Notes under the pieces: model-generated | What the model saw: the letters and a program-made list of their open reading frames with translations, nothing else | The model's database searches: none | Told to the model about the DNA's origin: nothing | Translations under genes and position numbers: made by a program | IMG/VR virus record: IMGVR_UViG_3300028607_002149 | Coordinates: 1-33,702 of that record | Source of the DNA: a virus | DNA length: 33,702 nt | Reading direction: 5' to 3' (one strand) | Shown: in pieces, positions 7,614 through 21,013 of the stretch | Position numbering within the stretch: position 1 is the first letter of the stretch | Layout: the number at the start of each line of letters is the position of its first letter

Positions 7614-8567
7614 ATGTCCGACACAATTCAAATCGTTATCGACGCACTAAAAGCTAAACATGGTAAAGAAGCTGCCCGCAAAATGTCAGATGGGGCGCGG
7701 TCAGCAGTAACGGATGTTATTCCTACTGGGATACTTCCTTTAGATAATTGGGTGACAGGGTGCGGGGGTCTTCCCGTTGGGAGAGTAACAGAACTCTTTT
7801 CCGAAGAAGGGGGAGGGAAGACCTCTTTGGTGTACCAGTGTATCGGACAGTGCCAAAAGATGGGAGGCATATCAATACTCGTAGAGACTGAGGATGCGCT
7901 TGACCCGCTTAGAGCCGAAGTATTTGGCGTAAACTTAGAAAATTTGGTCCTCATTGAGCCTAACAATATGGAGGAAGCCCTTGAGCAGATAAATACCGCG
8001 ATAAGCGCTCTACCAGAAGGCGTAGGGCCTATACTTTTGGCGTGGGATTCTTTAGCAGCAACACCTACAAAGGCCGAGATTGAAGCCGGTTTGGTTGGAG
8101 GCAATGCGATGGCTGATCGCGCTAGGCTAATGTCTCGCGCCTGCCGCGTATTAGGAAACATTGTTTCAAAACACAAAATTGCAATGCTTATTGTCAACCA
8201 GACACGGACTAAAATGGGCATCATGTTCGGCGATAATATGACTACACCTGGGGGGCAGGGCTTAAAGTTCTTGTCCAGCTTGCGTCTAAAAATATCGGGG
8301 GGCAAAGCAAATAAGAACGACCTAGGAGATCACACCGCAAAAGATATTTTGTTTCATGCTGTAAAGAACCGCATGGCCCCTCCTTGGCGCAAGTGCCGAG
8401 TAAGGCTGGACTATGAAACAGGGTTCGACAATGAATGGACCGTTATTGATTTCGGTAAAGAAAGGAAGATCCTAAAACCTCGCTCAAGAGGCAAAAAAGC
8501 GTATGATGAAGTGATTGAGGCTTTAGGTTGGAAAACAAGTACGGATCATGCCAAGGGCGACGAATGA
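7614..8567 (+). CDS. RecA/UvsX-type recombinase
   Basis: ATP-dependent strand-exchange protein for recombination-dependent replication and repair. Residues 63-71 form a Walker A variant (SEEGGGKTS). ILVETEDALDP (88-98) matches the RecA AEHALDP region. Walker B is ILLAWDSLA with D145. The DNA-binding loop region reads NQTRTKMGIMFGDN followed by TTPGGQGLKF, very close to bacterial RecA, with UvsX-like TPGG. At 317 residues it lacks most of the RecA C-terminal domain, as phage versions often do. Its stop overlaps the start of the SbcD-like gene (ATGA). It probably works with the gp32-like protein and the possible UvsY-like mediator upstream. Confidence 0.92.
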   Translation: MSDTIQIVIDALKAKHGKEAARKMSDGARSAVTDVIPTGILPLDNWVTGCGGLPVGRVTELFSEEGGGKTSLVYQCIGQCQKMGGISILVETEDALDPLRAEVFGVNLENLVLIEPNNMEEALEQINTAISALPEGVGPILLAWDSLAATPTKAEIEAGLVGGNAMADRARLMSRACRVLGNIVSKHKIAMLIVNQTRTKMGIMFGDNMTTPGGQGLKFLSSLRLKISGGKANKNDLGDHTAKDILFHAVKNRMAPPWRKCRVRLDYETGFDNEWTVIDFGKERKILKPRSRGKKAYDEVIEALGWKTSTDHAKGDE

Positions 8568-9721
8568 CACGTATAGCATTTGTTGGCGACGTTCACGTTG
8601 CTAACCATAAGAAATTTGGCGGACTTACAAATAAAGGTGTAAACGAAAGGTGTGAAAATATTCTTTACGCCCTCTCGTCTGCCGCAGTATTGGCAAGAAC
8701 ACAAAGGGCAGAAACTCTAGTAATCCTAGGGGATCTTTTTGATACGCCTAGGCCTAGCCCACAAATAGTAAAACGTGTGCAAGAAATCGTCGAGACTATT
8801 CCTACGGTTATCCTCGCTGGTAATCACGACCAATGTAGCGATGAACCTGGCGACAATGCACTAGCTCCCTTGTACCCTGTGGCTGAAGTCATCGACGCGC
8901 CTGACGTTGTTCCTGTGGGTGACGTAGACCTTCTCATGGTGCCTTATCTATCTGGCGACTACACAAAGAGGTTAGACGACGAGGTAACGACCTTAGTGCG
9001 CCAAGGGCTTGCAGGAACCAACGAGAAAAGAAAAAGGATACTCTGTTTTCACGCCGGAATAGTAGGAGAAAAGACACCTTTCTTTCTAAAAGAATCATCG
9101 GCCTCAATTTCTAAAGATAATCTTTTTGGATTAGCCGAAAAGCACAACATATCTATGTCTTTTGCAGGCCATTGGCATACGACAGAAACATGGCAGCACG
9201 ATAACGGCGAGCACAGGTGTTTAGCTGTACAAGCGGGTGCGCTGGCACCAACCGGCTTTGGCGATCAAGGTGTCCACTACGGCAACATGTATATCTTTGA
9301 TAGTGACAAAGACGAGCTTGAGTATCACACCGTTCCTGGTCCTCGCTTTATCGACGTTACCTTAGATCAAGATATTACGTGTATCTCGCAAGGACGAGAA
9401 GACAGACTAAAAGACTGCCGACTTTATGTAAGGATAAATGTTGATGAAACAGAGATTAGCTTAGGAGAAACAATCATAAAGGCGGGCATAGACGCTAATG
9501 CCATTGAAGACGGCGAGCTTTCTATAAACTCGGATAGGTCTAAAGAAGCCTGTGAAAAAGCCGCGAAAGCTACGCAATCTTCTGAGACACTAGAAGAAGC
9601 CTTGGCCGAGTACACAACACAAATGGTCGTAAAAGGTGTAGACGAATTAGATATCCCCGAAGCGAGACTAGAAATACTTGCCAAGGCGTTAGAATGTTTG
9701 AGGAAAAGCGGTGCTGATTAG
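8564..9721 (+). CDS. SbcD/gp47-type nuclease subunit
   Basis: Mre11-family metallophosphoesterase and nuclease partner of the SbcC-like ATPase encoded next. ATG 8564 is preferred (AAGG upstream, ATGA overlap with recA, and the family N-terminus MTRIAFVGDVHVAN) over a TTG at 8528. Metal-binding motifs are in order: D9-x-H11 (GDVHVA), GDLFD (57-60), GNHD (86-89), FHAGI and GHWHT. The C-terminal 100 residues are helical and acidic, the likely SbcC-contact region. At 385 residues it is near the usual size. It processes double-strand ends and hairpins, and in T4 the homologous complex resects ends before UvsX loading. Confidence 0.92.
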   Translation: MTRIAFVGDVHVANHKKFGGLTNKGVNERCENILYALSSAAVLARTQRAETLVILGDLFDTPRPSPQIVKRVQEIVETIPTVILAGNHDQCSDEPGDNALAPLYPVAEVIDAPDVVPVGDVDLLMVPYLSGDYTKRLDDEVTTLVRQGLAGTNEKRKRILCFHAGIVGEKTPFFLKESSASISKDNLFGLAEKHNISMSFAGHWHTTETWQHDNGEHRCLAVQAGALAPTGFGDQGVHYGNMYIFDSDKDELEYHTVPGPRFIDVTLDQDITCISQGREDRLKDCRLYVRINVDETEISLGETIIKAGIDANAIEDGELSINSDRSKEACEKAAKATQSSETLEEALAEYTTQMVVKGVDELDIPEARLEILAKALECLRKSGAD

Positions 9722-15638: not shown

Positions 15639-16805
15639 TTACTCCTCACAACCCGTGTCCAGGTAGGTAATAATTGTTTGACCCATAGAGGTTGAATCTG
15701 TAAGGGCATGTATTGATCCACCTGATGCCAGCGCAATATCGTCGAAGCTGTCCGCACACATTTGAGGTACAAATGCTACAAACGTTAGAATGGTATTTTG
15801 TATTATTTTAGTAACGGCAGCTTCGTGGACCAGGGGCACCTCGAATGTCTGTCCCGGCTCGTCGGTCCACAAAAATAGTATGCGTGCCGCGGTGGCTCTG
15901 TAGTTTAGGCCTAGTGTATTTAGTGACACAGACCTAATCACGTCATAGGTTGGCTCAAGGCCTGAGTTACTTAGCCCAGTAAGGCCTCCTATGGTGCGTA
16001 AGGTGGCTGTTCCGTTTGTAAGGTCTTGGACAAGGATAGGGACCGGATTTGTGTCCTTGTCGGGCAAGACAATAACCGCAAACCTCACCGCGCTTACGCC
16101 AACATATTTTGTAACCGCCCGCGTCATTGCCTGTGTACTTGCGGCGAAGCTACCGCTGAGCATAGAACACGACCTGTCTATAGCGAATACAACGTCGTAT
16201 TGTTTTGTAGATAAGTTTTCGTCAACCCTACCGTTACAGTTGTTGTCTATGCCATCGCATGTTTCTGTAGACGCTGTTACTTCGTAAAGACATTCATACG
16301 AACCACCGACGCATGTTAGTACCCCCGCATGGCATGGGGGATAAGATAGCGTTTGTGGGTCACCGCTAAAACAAAAATCAGTAAAGCCCAAATCATCAAC
16401 CACACCATTGCAGTCGTCGTCCTTTCCGTTACACGTTTCTATTTGTGGGGGAACTTCCGCGTAACAAGTAAGCGCCCCTTTGTGGCATTGCCAAGACCCC
16501 GTACTGCACTCGCCTACGTTAGAGCCGCACCAATCCCCTATTTGTTCATCATATACGGCTTCGTCTATCTTCCCATCACAGTCGTCGTCTAAGCCGTTAC
16601 AAGACTCATATGAAGGAAGGCGCTGCCCCGAACATTCTATAAATGCGTTTTCTACGCATAAAGGTTTCCCAGATTTACACTCGCCTACGTTATAAGTTTT
16701 ACTTGGTCCGTCATAACATGGAAGATCGCACTCCGATGAAGATATAGATATTGCTTCACCACAAGCAAACCAAACCAATAGAAATAACAAAGCAAGTTTA
16801 GCCAT
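15639..16805 (-). CDS. Exported protein with three MopE-type repeats and a vWA domain
   Basis: 388 residues from ATG 16805 (a longer frame to 16862 overlaps the upstream gene needlessly). Residues 1-15 form a signal peptide ending in WFAC, an imperfect lipobox, so it is exported and perhaps lipidated at C15. Three Cys-rich modules end in CNGLDDDCDGKIDE (69-82), CNGKDDDCNGVVDD (125-138) and CDGIDNNCNGRVDE (183-196), the MopE-type Asp/Cys motif thought to bind metal ions. Residues about 202-385 are a von Willebrand factor A domain: VVFAIDRSCSMLSGS with the MIDAS D210-x-S212-x-S214, and LFLWTDEPG with D315. MopE-type repeats are typical of deltaproteobacterial surface proteins. In a phage this suggests an envelope-located adhesion or host-acquired accessory protein; the role is inference. 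Confidence 0.85.
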   Translation of the reverse strand: MAKLALLFLLVWFACGEAISISSSECDLPCYDGPSKTYNVGECKSGKPLCVENAFIECSGQRLPSYESCNGLDDDCDGKIDEAVYDEQIGDWCGSNVGECSTGSWQCHKGALTCYAEVPPQIETCNGKDDDCNGVVDDLGFTDFCFSGDPQTLSYPPCHAGVLTCVGGSYECLYEVTASTETCDGIDNNCNGRVDENLSTKQYDVVFAIDRSCSMLSGSFAASTQAMTRAVTKYVGVSAVRFAVIVLPDKDTNPVPILVQDLTNGTATLRTIGGLTGLSNSGLEPTYDVIRSVSLNTLGLNYRATAARILFLWTDEPGQTFEVPLVHEAAVTKIIQNTILTFVAFVPQMCADSFDDIALASGGSIHALTDSTSMGQTIITYLDTGCEE

Positions 16806-17097
16806 CCGGATTTTGGCCTTTCTCAAATAGAGATTGAAATACTTGGTGTAATAGCAAACCAAACGTCTGAATAACGTGGTGATCTAGGTTGGCTTCAGTT
16901 GTTCCATTTAGGGCTTCTATTACTTCGTGCCAAAATGTTTCCCACGCTAGGCTCTGATTAAGATCAGCGTCTATAGTGATCTGTAGGTTACCGTCATCCC
17001 ATTCGCCAAAAGCGCTTTCTCCTGCAATAAGATTTTTCTTATGGACAATCTTTATTACATGGCCGCCCAACCGTATGTATTTTGGAAAAGGAACCAT
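16798..17097 (-). CDS. HExxE-containing metalloprotease-like phage protein
   Basis: 99 residues with AGGAG seven bases before ATG 17097. The N-terminal part is a small beta domain (KYIRLGGHVIKIVHKKNL, then GEWDDGNLQITIDADLN). The helical C-terminal part holds FWHEVIEALNG (H57-E58-x-x-E61) and DHHVIQTFGLLLHQVF with H73/H74. Phages carry a family of this size with HE..H or HE..E and a second His pair, related in pattern to SprT/ImmA-type zinc proteins. Whether it cleaves anything is unknown; Glu replaces the second His of HExxH. It overlaps the MopE/vWA gene by eight bases. Confidence 0.65.
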   Translation of the reverse strand: MVPFPKYIRLGGHVIKIVHKKNLIAGESAFGEWDDGNLQITIDADLNQSLAWETFWHEVIEALNGTTEANLDHHVIQTFGLLLHQVFQSLFEKGQNPDG

Positions 17098-17099
17098 AG

Positions 17100-18341
17100 C
17101 TAGTCTCCTACAGGCTCAATCTCTGTCGCGATAACACCGCGTTTTTGATCCACAATATAAGCTATTAAAGCCTTTCGCGACTTGTAGCCGTGTTTGTGGT
17201 GCCATGCGTCTGTGCCCGCTAACGAAGGCATACGGTAAACAGTAACGTTACCAAATACTGGAAAGTCTCTTTCGGTATGTAAGTGCCCGCAGAAGATGAA
17301 TCTATGTTTAGAGTCACCCCACTCTTTTGGTTTTTCGCCTGCTATAATTGCGGGCCAATCGCGAGGCTTCCCAACGTCACCGTGTAAAAAGGTGAGTAAA
17401 GAGTTTCCATAAGACACATATTGCCTTGGTGAGAAAGTCTCAACAACATCAACATCCTTAGCTTTTGAAAACCACCCCTGCATAGCCACACGTAAAAGGG
17501 TCGCTGTGTAATAGTCGTGGTTGCCTGGAATTACGAACAGAGTAACTGGCGCAAGTTGCCTAAGCATATCAACATAGTCGCGACACAGCTTTACCCAATA
17601 CCAAGCAAGTTCAGCCGGTGTGCCGTCGCAATCTTGTGGCGTGCCTGCGGTTGTAGTCTTTTGTTGGTTGTCGATATGTAGACCATCCCCTCCAAGAGCT
17701 AAGAAAATCCTTTGTGGTTTTCCGCGTTTTATAATTCTTGAAAGGAGATTTTTTGTTACGTCCTTTAGTCTCTTTTTACATTTTGCTCTGTTGTATCCGT
17801 CGCCAGTGTAGTCCGGTGCATACTTTCCAAAATGGAAATCGGTTGGACTGATAACGATAGCGTATGGCGGCTTGGTTTGGGGTAACTTTATCGTAGGTAC
17901 GGCGTAGGTGGGTGCAATGTCTTCAAACCTTAGAGCCAACCTTTTGGCTATGAGATCAACACGACGAAATGAGTCTGCATCTTTCTTTATTTTGCTCCAC
18001 TCTCTTTTTTCGGCGGTTACTAAAACCTTTTCTTCTTTACGCCGAATTAGATCTTCTATTAGCTCATCTTCGCCGCTCTCACCTATTTCTTCATCTGTCC
18101 AAGGGGCGCTGTCGTGGGTGGTTTCCATAGCCCTCAAAATTTCGGTTATGGTGCGTTTTGCTAGTCCAAGTTTTCGGGCAAGTTCGTTCACACTTGCGGG
18201 TGCCCCATCCCAGTTTGAATAGGCCTCGCGTATGATTTTCCAAGACTCCCCCGGAATGGCTAAAGGGTTTTTCTTAGACGGCAAATGTACTACGTAAAGA
18301 TCTCTTGTCTTGTCATACCAGTACGGGCGGCTGTGTTCCAT
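17100..18341 (-). CDS. HTH-metallophosphoesterase fusion
   Basis: 413 residues with GAGGG six bases before ATG 18341. Residues about 48-72 (SVNELARKLGLAKRTITEIL) form a helix-turn-helix, then an acidic linker and a basic helix. Residues about 158-400 are a calcineurin-like phosphoesterase with all metal motifs: TDFHFGKYA (D168, H170), GGDG (D219), GNHD (273-276), LHGD (H320), CGHLHTE (H353, H355). It is distinct from the SbcD-like gene. Similar HTH-phosphoesterases occur in other phages, with DNA-end or DNA-repair nuclease roles suggested. It is encoded on the opposite strand to the replication genes, within the tail/lysis transcript, so it may act late. Confidence 0.85.
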   Translation of the reverse strand: MEHSRPYWYDKTRDLYVVHLPSKKNPLAIPGESWKIIREAYSNWDGAPASVNELARKLGLAKRTITEILRAMETTHDSAPWTDEEIGESGEDELIEDLIRRKEEKVLVTAEKREWSKIKKDADSFRRVDLIAKRLALRFEDIAPTYAVPTIKLPQTKPPYAIVISPTDFHFGKYAPDYTGDGYNRAKCKKRLKDVTKNLLSRIIKRGKPQRIFLALGGDGLHIDNQQKTTTAGTPQDCDGTPAELAWYWVKLCRDYVDMLRQLAPVTLFVIPGNHDYYTATLLRVAMQGWFSKAKDVDVVETFSPRQYVSYGNSLLTFLHGDVGKPRDWPAIIAGEKPKEWGDSKHRFIFCGHLHTERDFPVFGNVTVYRMPSLAGTDAWHHKHGYKSRKALIAYIVDQKRGVIATEIEPVGD

Positions 18342-18350
18342 TCTAAGCCC

Positions 18351-18602
18351 TCAAAAGCGCCTAATGTGGTTACGGGGGCGTTTAGGCTTTGGGGGTAACA
18401 TGCAGGCGCATACACCCTTCTCGTTCCACATCGGGCGAAAGCCGTATTTGACTAAAGGAGAACAGGCACGGATACACGCATCGACCGTAACTTTTGTATG
18501 AAAACTTGCCGCACAGCTCGAAAAAGCGATAAGGACGAGAGGCACTAGGAATTTTTTATGGTACAGTTTCAGAGATGGCCTCCTTCGGGTCAATGCCGCC
18601 AT
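18351..18602 (-). CDS. Small lipoprotein with uncertain start
   Basis: Frame of 83 residues from ATG 18602, which has no ribosome site and sits in an inverted repeat. Inside the frame is a perfect AAGGAGG (18585-18579), six bases before a CTG at 18572. A CTG start would give a compact lipoprotein signal peptide: K, L, Y, H, KK, then FLVPLVLIAFSSC with lipobox FSSC. The mature part is Cys-rich and basic (TVDACIRACSPLVKYGFRPM, GVCACMLPPKPKRPRNH). An outer spanin is one possibility, since phage lysis genes are nearby, but it is not adjacent to them. Rare CTG initiation is inferred, not shown. Confidence 0.5.
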   Translation of the reverse strand: MAALTRRRPSLKLYHKKFLVPLVLIAFSSCAASFHTKVTVDACIRACSPLVKYGFRPMWNEKGVCACMLPPKPKRPRNHIRRF

Positions 18603-19404: not shown

Positions 19405-19767
19405 TTACCTCAGTGCGGCGGTAACTAATGTTCCTAAAACAAATCCGAGTACCCCCATACTCGTGTAAAGCACCAAGTCACTTTTAGAAAATAAGGATTT
19501 TTCAGAAGCAGGTTTTGGCGGCAATACAATCTTATTAATAACCGTAGAAGTTCTTACGGCAAGTTTATCTAAGCAACCATTTAGAGCAGATCTTGTTTCT
19601 TCTGTGCGGCCTTCCCACGTAATTGCAGCATCGTACAAACCTTTTTCGCATTTCGTTAGTACGCGATTAGGATCGCAAATACGGATTTCTTGTGCGTTGG
19701 CTATTACCGAAGGCGGCAAAAATGATAACGCAGATGCAACAATAGCTATTTGTTTCTTAGACGCCAT
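19405..19767 (-). CDS. Exported protein with C-terminal membrane anchor
   Basis: 120 residues. The N-terminus MASKKQIAIVASALSFLP...VIANAQE is a typical Sec signal peptide with an AxA-like cleavage site (ANAQ). The middle is a Cys-containing periplasmic region (IRICDPNRVLTKCEKGLYDA, NGCLDKLAVRTSTVINKIVL), and the C-terminus is a membrane helix (VLYTSMGVLGFVLGTLVTAA). It begins inside the end of the preceding coiled-coil protein gene (22-base overlap), an arrangement seen in Rz/Rz1-type spanin pairs, though outer spanins are lipoproteins and this one is not. Lysis-related role is inferred from position. Confidence 0.55.
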   Translation of the reverse strand: MASKKQIAIVASALSFLPPSVIANAQEIRICDPNRVLTKCEKGLYDAAITWEGRTEETRSALNGCLDKLAVRTSTVINKIVLPPKPASEKSLFSKSDLVLYTSMGVLGFVLGTLVTAALR

Positions 19768-20042
19768 GGCCTCAACACCCTTGATAGTAAGTTGTTTGCC
19801 GCGTTTCCGCTATTTTTAGAAAGCCTTTCTTCGGTAGTGGCTTTTATTTTTACACGATCTGCAACAACCTTTGAGTCAGTCGCCTTATCTTTTCTGGCAA
19901 TCTCTTTCTGAACCATATCGGCTTGGGTTTTCTGTCGCTCTACTGCTTGGTCGTAGCCGAGTGATGTAAACTTAGAGCGCAAACCGAAGTACGCCCCTAT
20001 TCCTCCAAGAATACTAATCAACGCGGCTACGACCCAGCCCAT
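19746..20042 (-). CDS. Candidate inner-membrane spanin (Rz-like topology)
   Basis: 98 residues: an N-terminal membrane helix (WVVAALISILGGIGAYFGL) then a long charged coiled-coil-like periplasmic region (YDQAVERQKTQADMVQKEIA, RKDKATDSKVVADRVKIKAT). This is the topology of inner-membrane spanins, which span the periplasm to fuse inner and outer membranes in Gram-negative hosts. It follows the holin candidate by two bases and overlaps the exported anchored protein. No sequence-level family match is claimed. Confidence 0.55.
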   Translation of the reverse strand: MGWVVAALISILGGIGAYFGLRSKFTSLGYDQAVERQKTQADMVQKEIARKDKATDSKVVADRVKIKATTEERLSKNSGNAANNLLSRVLRPWRLRNK

Positions 20043-20044
20043 AA

Positions 20045-20278
20045 CTATTTACCTGAGGCTATGACTGCCGGACGGACCTTACCATCGACGAAACTTTGCC
20101 CGCCGATAAGCGTTACGCCAGCAAGACCCGTTGTCGCGCCCATCGTCGTGACAATCTGTTCAAGTACGCTATTGCCAACGCCAAGAAAGAATCCGACTCC
20201 GAGTAATCCAACAGTCGCGCAAAGCATTAGCAAAAACACAATGCACTTTTTACTACCAAAAAATGATTTTTCCATCAT
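20045..20278 (-). CDS. Candidate holin-like membrane protein
   Basis: 77 residues from ATG 20278; the second ATG (20275) is better spaced after the very strong AGGAGG. Basic N-terminus (EKSFFGSKK), a hydrophobic helix (CIVFLLMLCATVGLLGVGFF), then a more polar second segment TTMGATTGLAGVTLIGGQSF and a short basic end VDGKVRPAV. The GGQxxxDGK ending resembles small phage holin-like proteins. Position near an M15 endolysin supports a membrane-permeabilising role. Confidence 0.5.
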   Translation of the reverse strand: MMEKSFFGSKKCIVFLLMLCATVGLLGVGFFLGVGNSVLEQIVTTMGATTGLAGVTLIGGQSFVDGKVRPAVIASGK

Positions 20279-20283
20279 TCCTC

Positions 20284-20607
20284 CTAATCACACTCGACAT
20301 CCAGTTTCGTGCAGATTCGCGCCATGCTCAACTGCATTTTCCCTAGGCTATTACGAAGTTCCCTATTGAGCTTCATAAGTTCCCTCCTGTCATCCTTCGA
20401 TTCCTGCGCTAATGCGCCGAACTTATCGTCACTGTGTTTTTCTAAATGTACGATTTTGGATTCGAGGCTGGACAGCCTGTATCGAGATTCCCCGATGATA
20501 GCAGCCGTTAGAACTAAAGCAACTATAAGTGGCCAAAACTTTACCAATACTTCAAAAGCATTGGGTTGTGGAATGTCGGCAGTTAGTAGTTCTGGATCGG
20601 TAGTCAT
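20284..20607 (-). CDS. Membrane-anchored coiled-coil protein
   Basis: 107 residues with AGGA eight bases before ATG 20607. The hydrophilic N-terminus is followed by a membrane helix (FWPLIVALVLTAAIIG) and a long amphipathic coil (RYRLSSLESKIVHLEKHSDD, then KDDRRELMKLNRELRNSLGK), ending in a Cys pair (ICTKLDVEC). It lies between the endolysin and the holin candidate. XhlA-like or a second spanin component is possible; I cannot choose. Confidence 0.55.
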   Translation of the reverse strand: MTTDPELLTADIPQPNAFEVLVKFWPLIVALVLTAAIIGESRYRLSSLESKIVHLEKHSDDKFGALAQESKDDRRELMKLNRELRNSLGKMQLSMARICTKLDVECD

Positions 20608-20617
20608 TGTTCATTTC

Positions 20618-21013
20618 CTATTCGTTCACCAATTCGTAATGAACAAGATCGTCGAACGAGTTATCGGCAGTCTTCCAGTCACGGTCCCAGTCTCCGCCCC
20701 AACGGATTAAAATTCCCATCTGTATTGCCGTTCCTAAAACGAATCCAGCAAATAAAGTAATACGCTCGCGGTCATTCCAATCTATCGGATAGCAAATTGC
20801 ATCAACGGCAAGGCTAGGCAATTTGTTATGCGTCGAGTCGGGCCATTGAAGCTGTGATCGGTTAGTCTCTTTCATTTCTTCCTGATCAGACTGGTTCCTA
20901 TGTCCAACCAAAATAGTGTTATCAAAAGTTTCAACCACGCGATTGAATACCCACTGCAAGCGTTCGTCGCATTGTGCAAGTTTGATTGCAGATCGTTTGC
21001 TGTATTTGGGCAT
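20618..21013 (-). CDS. M15-family peptidase endolysin
   Basis: Peptidoglycan hydrolase of 131 residues, the typical length of phage VanY-like L-Ala-D-Glu or D-Ala-D-Ala peptidases. It has LQWVFNRVVETFDNTILVGH, then STHNKLPSLAVDAICYPIDW with zinc ligands H62 and D71, RWGGDWDRDW, and FDDLVHYEL with H125. Together H, D and H form the M15 zinc site; no signal peptide is present, so release would depend on a holin, consistent with the neighbours. It ends host cell wall integrity at lysis. The start has only a weak ribosome site, so coupling to the upstream LamG gene is likely. Confidence 0.9.
   Translation of the reverse strand: MPKYSKRSAIKLAQCDERLQWVFNRVVETFDNTILVGHRNQSDQEEMKETNRSQLQWPDSTHNKLPSLAVDAICYPIDWNDRERITLFAGFVLGTAIQMGILIRWGGDWDRDWKTADNSFDDLVHYELVNE

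Follow-up and report, generated by a model that had tools for sequence, protein, structure and literature searches.

The gene described here is not the curiosity of one phage but a member of a large phage family of unusual architecture, in which an export signal precedes a stalk of MopE repeats and a vWA domain carrying MIDAS residues forms the C-terminus. That an envelope-protein family built in this way exists is, in our judgement, very probable. An earlier note on the DNA analysed (a 33.7 kb IMG/VR virus record of 33,702 nucleotides, hereafter the window) had regarded this architecture as foreign to tailed phages. That view has to be given up for uncultivated phage contigs, in which the architecture is common: a scan of IMG/VR found relatives at 43 loci and another, which used an alignment of the long form, recovered 458, though a tblastn search of 50,697 deposited phage records returned no MopE-vWA relative. 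In the literature searched, no paper connected MopE and vWA proteins with phages. Bacterial and animal cells are known to display stalked, integrin-like adhesion domains on their surfaces; here, an apparently phage-restricted stalked adhesion domain recurs in many unrelated uncultivated phages. As no member turned up in the deposited phage genomes searched, a widespread surface strategy may be absent from the model phages of the laboratory.

The coding strand, which the earlier note had not named, is the minus strand, and the features of the gene and its product are as follows.

15639 to 16805, minus strand: MopE-vWA gene, 388 aa, stop included; ATG at 16805, stop at 15639-15641
16746 to 16805, minus strand: N-terminal export signal, residues 1-20, from the hydrophobic N-terminus
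16560 to 16601, minus strand: MopE repeat 1, CNGLDDDCDGKIDE, residues 69-82 (Pfam)
16392 to 16433, minus strand: MopE repeat 2, CNGKDDDCNGVVDD, residues 125-138 (Pfam)
16218 to 16259, minus strand: MopE repeat 3, CDGIDNNCNGRVDE, residues 183-196 (Pfam)
15642 to 16211, minus strand: vWA domain, residues 199-388, from profile and fold matches to integrin, vWF and TFIIH A domains
16164 to 16178, minus strand: MIDAS core D210-R-S212-C-S214 (DRSCSM; DxSxS), from the alignment of viral vWA domains
15849 to 15866, minus strand: T314-D315-E316-P-G-Q319, family motif [TS]DExxQ[ST], from the alignment of vWA domains
15648 to 15650, minus strand: Cys386, C-terminal family hallmark, invariant in 24 vWA domains

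Ahead of the ATG, at a distance of about 10-15 nt, is an AGAAAGG-like stretch that would serve ribosome binding. The three MopE repeats behind an export signal, as read in the earlier note, are well founded: the Pfam family Cu-binding_MopE (PF11617) matched three stretches above its curated cut-off (E 7e-16, 58.6 bits versus 27), and the protein opens with the hydrophobic segment MAKLALLFLLVWFAC. By comparison with the MopE holoprotein, copper binding is not implied for the phage protein by the repeat alone. The short hydrophobic stretch formed by the first 15 residues closes with Cys15, which is invariant among 11 aligned homologues and is a probable lipid-attachment site. The lipobox of the window protein, WFAC, is non-canonical and weak; most other relatives possess canonical LxGC/SxC-type boxes (e.g. 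LAGC, ITGC, FSGC, VISC and LTGC), and a lipoprotein-like N-terminus is found in nearly all MopE-vWA relatives, with signal-peptide calls made by pattern and not by a trained predictor.

Assignment of the vWA domain needed other evidence, because the match to Pfam VWA (PF00092), which covers residues 204-373, falls below the cut-off (E 0.017, 15.8 bits versus 23.8); the relative L003 clears the same cut-off at 28.9 bits. A profile built from 11 viral relatives matches integrin I/beta-A domains (E 3e-5). In the AlphaFold2 model, residues 199-388 are mostly at pLDDT 75-93, with the MopE part at low confidence, and the model aligns with the A domains of TFIIH p44, integrin and vWF at Z scores of 17-20 over 164-203 residues, with an rmsd of 2.5-3.1 A in nearly all rows of the structure alignment. 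Because this fold match shows an A domain, the vWA domain is present despite its sub-cut-off Pfam score, and the modelled residues 199-388 are best described as an A-domain fold and a divergent vWA domain. The vWA domain with its DRSCSM motif, as put forward in the earlier note, is thereby borne out. The best structural match in a viral library was the viral protein A0A516KYY5 (BFVD; E 4e-24, 31% identity, 272 alignment columns), which at 266 aa is shorter than the MopE-vWA protein.

Across 24 viral vWA domains, the Asp and the last Ser of the MIDAS core are invariant and the middle Ser is conserved in at least 90%, while in the [TS]DExxQ[ST] motif the Asp and Glu are invariant and the Gln is conserved in at least 90% of 24 vWA domains. 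A canonical MIDAS has five metal ligands (D-x-S-x-S, Thr and Asp); as candidates for these, D210, S212, S214 and D315 are present and conserved, with D315 likely to be the third MIDAS acidic residue. In the second loop region a Glu and an Asp are invariant across 24 vWA domains, and by the alignment an invariant Glu-Pro appears to occupy the position expected for the canonical loop-2 Thr of the predicted MIDAS. The phage domain has the fold, the D-x-S-x-S motif and the putative Asp metal ligands in common with MIDAS-containing vWA/integrin I domains, but differs from them in scoring below the Pfam VWA cut-off and in adding the [TS]DExxQ[ST] motif and the C-terminal Cys.

Most of the 43 loci repeat this domain order: the signal at the N-terminus includes a lipobox-like cysteine, the MopE repeats that follow number 2-9, and the vWA domain comes last. 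The vWA domain is present in 78 of the best 80 of the 458 long-form relatives, and the two proteins lacking it are apparently incomplete at contig ends. Full-length viral members score 90-220 bits against the vWA profile, many of them from outside the profile-building set; the near-identical L002 scores 156 bits, the window copy itself being part of the profile, and nearly all long-form members outside the profile reach 135-202 bits with MopE repeats in the same ORF. Estimated dN/dS is 0.05-0.08 in three homologue pairs, which shows strong purifying selection in these pairs; a fourth, nearly identical pair gave 0.27, and three more pairs were saturated. The genomic position of the gene varies: lysis genes adjoin it in the window, replication genes in L003, L012 and L024, a capsid-like gene in L042 (by reading of the sequence) and GroEL in several records, and no single conserved gene neighbourhood was found around it. 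A general excess of exported genes among its neighbours was weak (21/164 versus 34/466, p 0.04), and no weight is placed on it. At one locus (L037:10004-11080, plus strand), a MopE stalk carries at its C-terminus, where the vWA domain would be, another domain that was not recognised, which suggests that the tip of the stalk is swappable.

In the window, the plus strand carries replication genes (primase, DNA polymerase, SSB, UvsX and SbcD/SbcC), and the minus strand carries, in order, a tape-measure-like gene, probable tail genes, the lysis region, an HTH regulator, an 83-aa lipoprotein, a phosphoesterase, a 99-aa gene and the MopE-vWA gene. The next gene begins 5 nt past the MopE-vWA stop. 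The following neighbours lie upstream.

16798 to 17097, minus strand: upstream gene, 99 aa, phrog_1233 (unknown function), contains HEVIE; overlaps the MopE-vWA gene by 8 nt
17100 to 18341, minus strand: calcineurin-like phosphoesterase, phrog_704 'DNA repair exonuclease', genomic neighbour
18351 to 18602, minus strand: 83-aa predicted lipoprotein (LIAFSSC), genomic neighbour, no PHROG match
19746 to 21013, minus strand: lysis region, same strand as the MopE-vWA gene, endolysin and three membrane proteins

The overlap, together with the replication, tail and lysis genes around it, agrees with the setting among phage genes described in the earlier note. Chromosomal origin of the window, the reservation attached to that description, is ruled out by the matches to primase, DNA polymerase, SSB, UvsX, SbcC/D, endolysin and tape-measure-like genes. 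The endolysin (20618-21013) is phrog_465 (E 3e-25), and the three membrane proteins look like holin and spanin as judged by topology (hydrophobic segments) only. The 99-aa HEVIE gene is possibly a degenerate small zinc-peptidase-like phage protein. A second, different calcineurin-like phosphoesterase gene is present in the window at 8528-9721 (plus strand), and in L003 and L037 (in L024 by eye) the MopE-vWA gene likewise has a phosphoesterase 1-3 genes away. The DNA polymerase of the window occurs at 100% in three other IMG/VR contigs, one of which also has the MopE-vWA gene with one residue different. Because these genes recur, the window phage is real and recurrent; a search of IMG/VR found no relatives of its DNA polymerase beyond the same phage in other assemblies.

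Our overall reading, which is tentative and falls somewhat short of an even chance, is that the phage makes during infection an exported, probably lipid-anchored envelope protein, a MIDAS-tipped adhesin on display at the surface of infected cells that may mask or disable a receptor; the receptor-masking role specifically is possible, though likewise less than evenly probable. The export signal with its conserved cysteine would send the protein to the envelope, probably with a lipid anchor, and its seat after export would be the outer membrane. There, the cysteine-rich MopE stalk, differing in repeat number between phages, would carry the integrin-type vWA tip, and the MIDAS may bind an envelope or surface ligand. 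A bound receptor would be masked or disabled, leading to superinfection exclusion or keeping progeny off dying cells, and the protease, where present, could process the same surface target. Action at the cell envelope, as envisaged in the earlier note, is supported as probable, and a periplasmic location is equally compatible with the sequence as a surface location.

We favour receptor masking or superinfection exclusion as the most likely role on two grounds: phages are known to achieve such exclusion through exported lipoproteins that act on an envelope receptor, and the gene changes its genome position in the manner of accessory genes. T5 Llp is a phage superinfection-exclusion lipoprotein. 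The coliphage exclusion lipoprotein Cor resembles the MopE-vWA protein in phage-encoded export and an expected outer-membrane site, but Cor/Llp-type lipoproteins are small, whereas the MopE-vWA protein consists of a stalk and an A-domain tip. Superinfection exclusion in coliphages is mediated by phage lipoproteins (PMC11893012), and Cor excludes FhuA-dependent phages according to work cited there.

Many family records also encode an exported protease. Trypsin_2 scores above cut-off in 24/35 and 21/50 family records (45/85 together) versus 1/50 random IMG/VR records, the latter being records of at least 20 kb chosen by arbitrary 14- and 15-mers. The protease lies within 2.5 kb of the MopE-vWA gene in 7 of 12 protease-bearing lineages, where 2.2 are expected under a generous null (p 8e-4), with the distance picked after the data were seen and the lineages being records grouped at 50% identity that are related to each other. 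The close protease is usually next downstream of the MopE-vWA gene or flanking it. Among the Trypsin_2 proteases read, most combine catalytic H/D/S motifs with a lipobox-containing signal peptide; the L372 protease has a signal without a lipobox, and L378, the second protease in the L025 record, has no export signal. They are thus like the exported serine proteases HtrA, DegS and MarP in their Trypsin_2 domain and, mostly, their signal peptide, and resemble the models of these proteases, but score far below the curated cut-offs, those of HtrA and DegS included. The window record itself yielded no Trypsin_2, and the association therefore concerns the family and not the window phage; L003, L017 and L037 likewise yielded none. 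An adhesin-like lipoprotein with an exported protease offers a small testable gene pair. It is possible, though rather doubtful, that in hundreds of uncultivated phages, very large ones included, a previously unnoticed secreted module, comprising an envelope lipoprotein with a variable MopE stalk and a phage-specific MIDAS tip, often together with an exported HtrA-like lipoprotein protease, remodels or guards the infected-cell surface.

The proteases also bear on two other readings. The protein could be a lysis or egress factor, in which an outer-membrane lipoprotein, exported proteases and murein hydrolases weaken the envelope or outer layer late in infection, and the window gene does come after the endolysin and the probable genes for holin and spanin, all on one strand. 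Likewise, in the L004 clade the family gene lies beside a predicted lipoprotein with an SLT transglycosylase domain (L004:7618-8268, minus strand) and two exported Trypsin_2 proteases. This reading is nevertheless unlikely, as most other lineages have replication, recombination, GroEL or unknown neighbours instead of lysis genes, and a MIDAS binding domain is untypical of lytic parts. Quite unlikely, in turn, is a secreted sensing or processing pair, in which the vWA lipoprotein would bind a surface ligand and an HtrA/DegS-like lipoprotein protease would co-act, giving the infected cell a means to read or remodel the envelope. The enrichment and frequent adjacency of Trypsin_2, its resemblance to the MarP/HtrA/DegS models (far below cut-offs) and an M50 site-2 protease in the L012 clade (L012:6956-7756, minus strand; Pfam E 3e-53), which adjoins an exported Trypsin_2 near the MopE-vWA gene, speak for such a pair. 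However, several records, that of the window among them, lack Trypsin_2, no matching partner in the cytoplasm has come to light, and M50 occurs in just 4/45 records, on which count a site-2 protease cascade was rejected. That the protein belongs to the virion, for instance in adhesion or at the tail tip, is highly improbable: the fold is adhesin-like and virion-structural annotations exist for some phage proteins of the vWA fold (e.g. A0A0S0N896 in the BFVD list), but the N-terminal export signal has a conserved cysteine, the protein has no PHROG match, and its gene lies outside the tail gene cluster of the window.

The earlier note had suggested that the protein may be a captured host adhesin that alters the surface of the infected cell (predation, adhesion, receptor masking), or else a clue to the host, having placed such architectures in Myxococcota. 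On the capture reading, the protein would serve adhesion or predation much as it would on a myxobacterium. A genome scan found 80 bacterial MopE loci, largely in Myxococcota and Deltaproteobacteria, which favours such an origin, but these match mainly the MopE region and no ORF among them combines MopE with this vWA. The MopE-repeat surface proteins of Myxococcota (PF11617; 'MopE-related protein') accordingly share the exported state and the repeats with the phage protein, and differ in that the bacterial loci were found without this vWA, whereas members of the phage family bear a lipobox and end in a vWA tip. Against the vWA profile, the best cellular vWA domain reached 48 bits in a set of 20 genomes, and no cellular one exceeded 60.5 bits in 284 genomes drawn from the phylum of a Polyangium; no cellular gene with the MopE-vWA architecture was found in the sampled genomes, a sampling that is no proof of absence. 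In addition, the codon usage of the gene, which the earlier note had proposed to compare, is that of the rest of the window (correlation 0.857, GC3 0.433). Recent capture is thus not upheld, and the captured-adhesin reading retains a slim chance; because the family is divergent across many phage lineages, any capture would be old. By its sequences, the family seems phage-restricted so far and occupies its own highly divergent sequence space.

Of the host clue, the MopE-repeat matches stand, and the single strong match among the 284 Polyangium-phylum genomes is a 34.9 kb contig whose genes match viral contigs. This contig is weak host evidence because binned contigs can be misplaced, and the link of the phage family to Myxococcota is plausible but thin. 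Desulfobacterota as a source gave 0/297 genomes in a scan without a positive control. One 267 kb contig (L038) encodes several MopE proteins, one with a Cys-transmembrane-Arg-Arg tail that is MYXO-CTERM-like by eye; such a tail was rejected as host evidence, as an NCBIfam scan gave no such match in the L038 protein and TIGR03901 was found in 0 of 35 virus records. In a separate case, Pfam places a vWA domain inside a bacterial flagellin (L143:3991-5409, minus strand), where it separates the N- and C-terminal flagellin regions. The MopE-vWA family nonetheless offers a handle on the hosts of these phages. GroEL (phrog_5725, E 3e-137) lies near the MopE-vWA gene at L021:7499-9118 (plus strand) and related loci in several large phage contigs, and the GroEL genes of such contigs could help host assignment. 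Finally, terminase matches at G325:C1:83603-85018 and G321:C1:102017-102982 each contain one in-frame stop, perhaps reflecting an intron or a frameshift.
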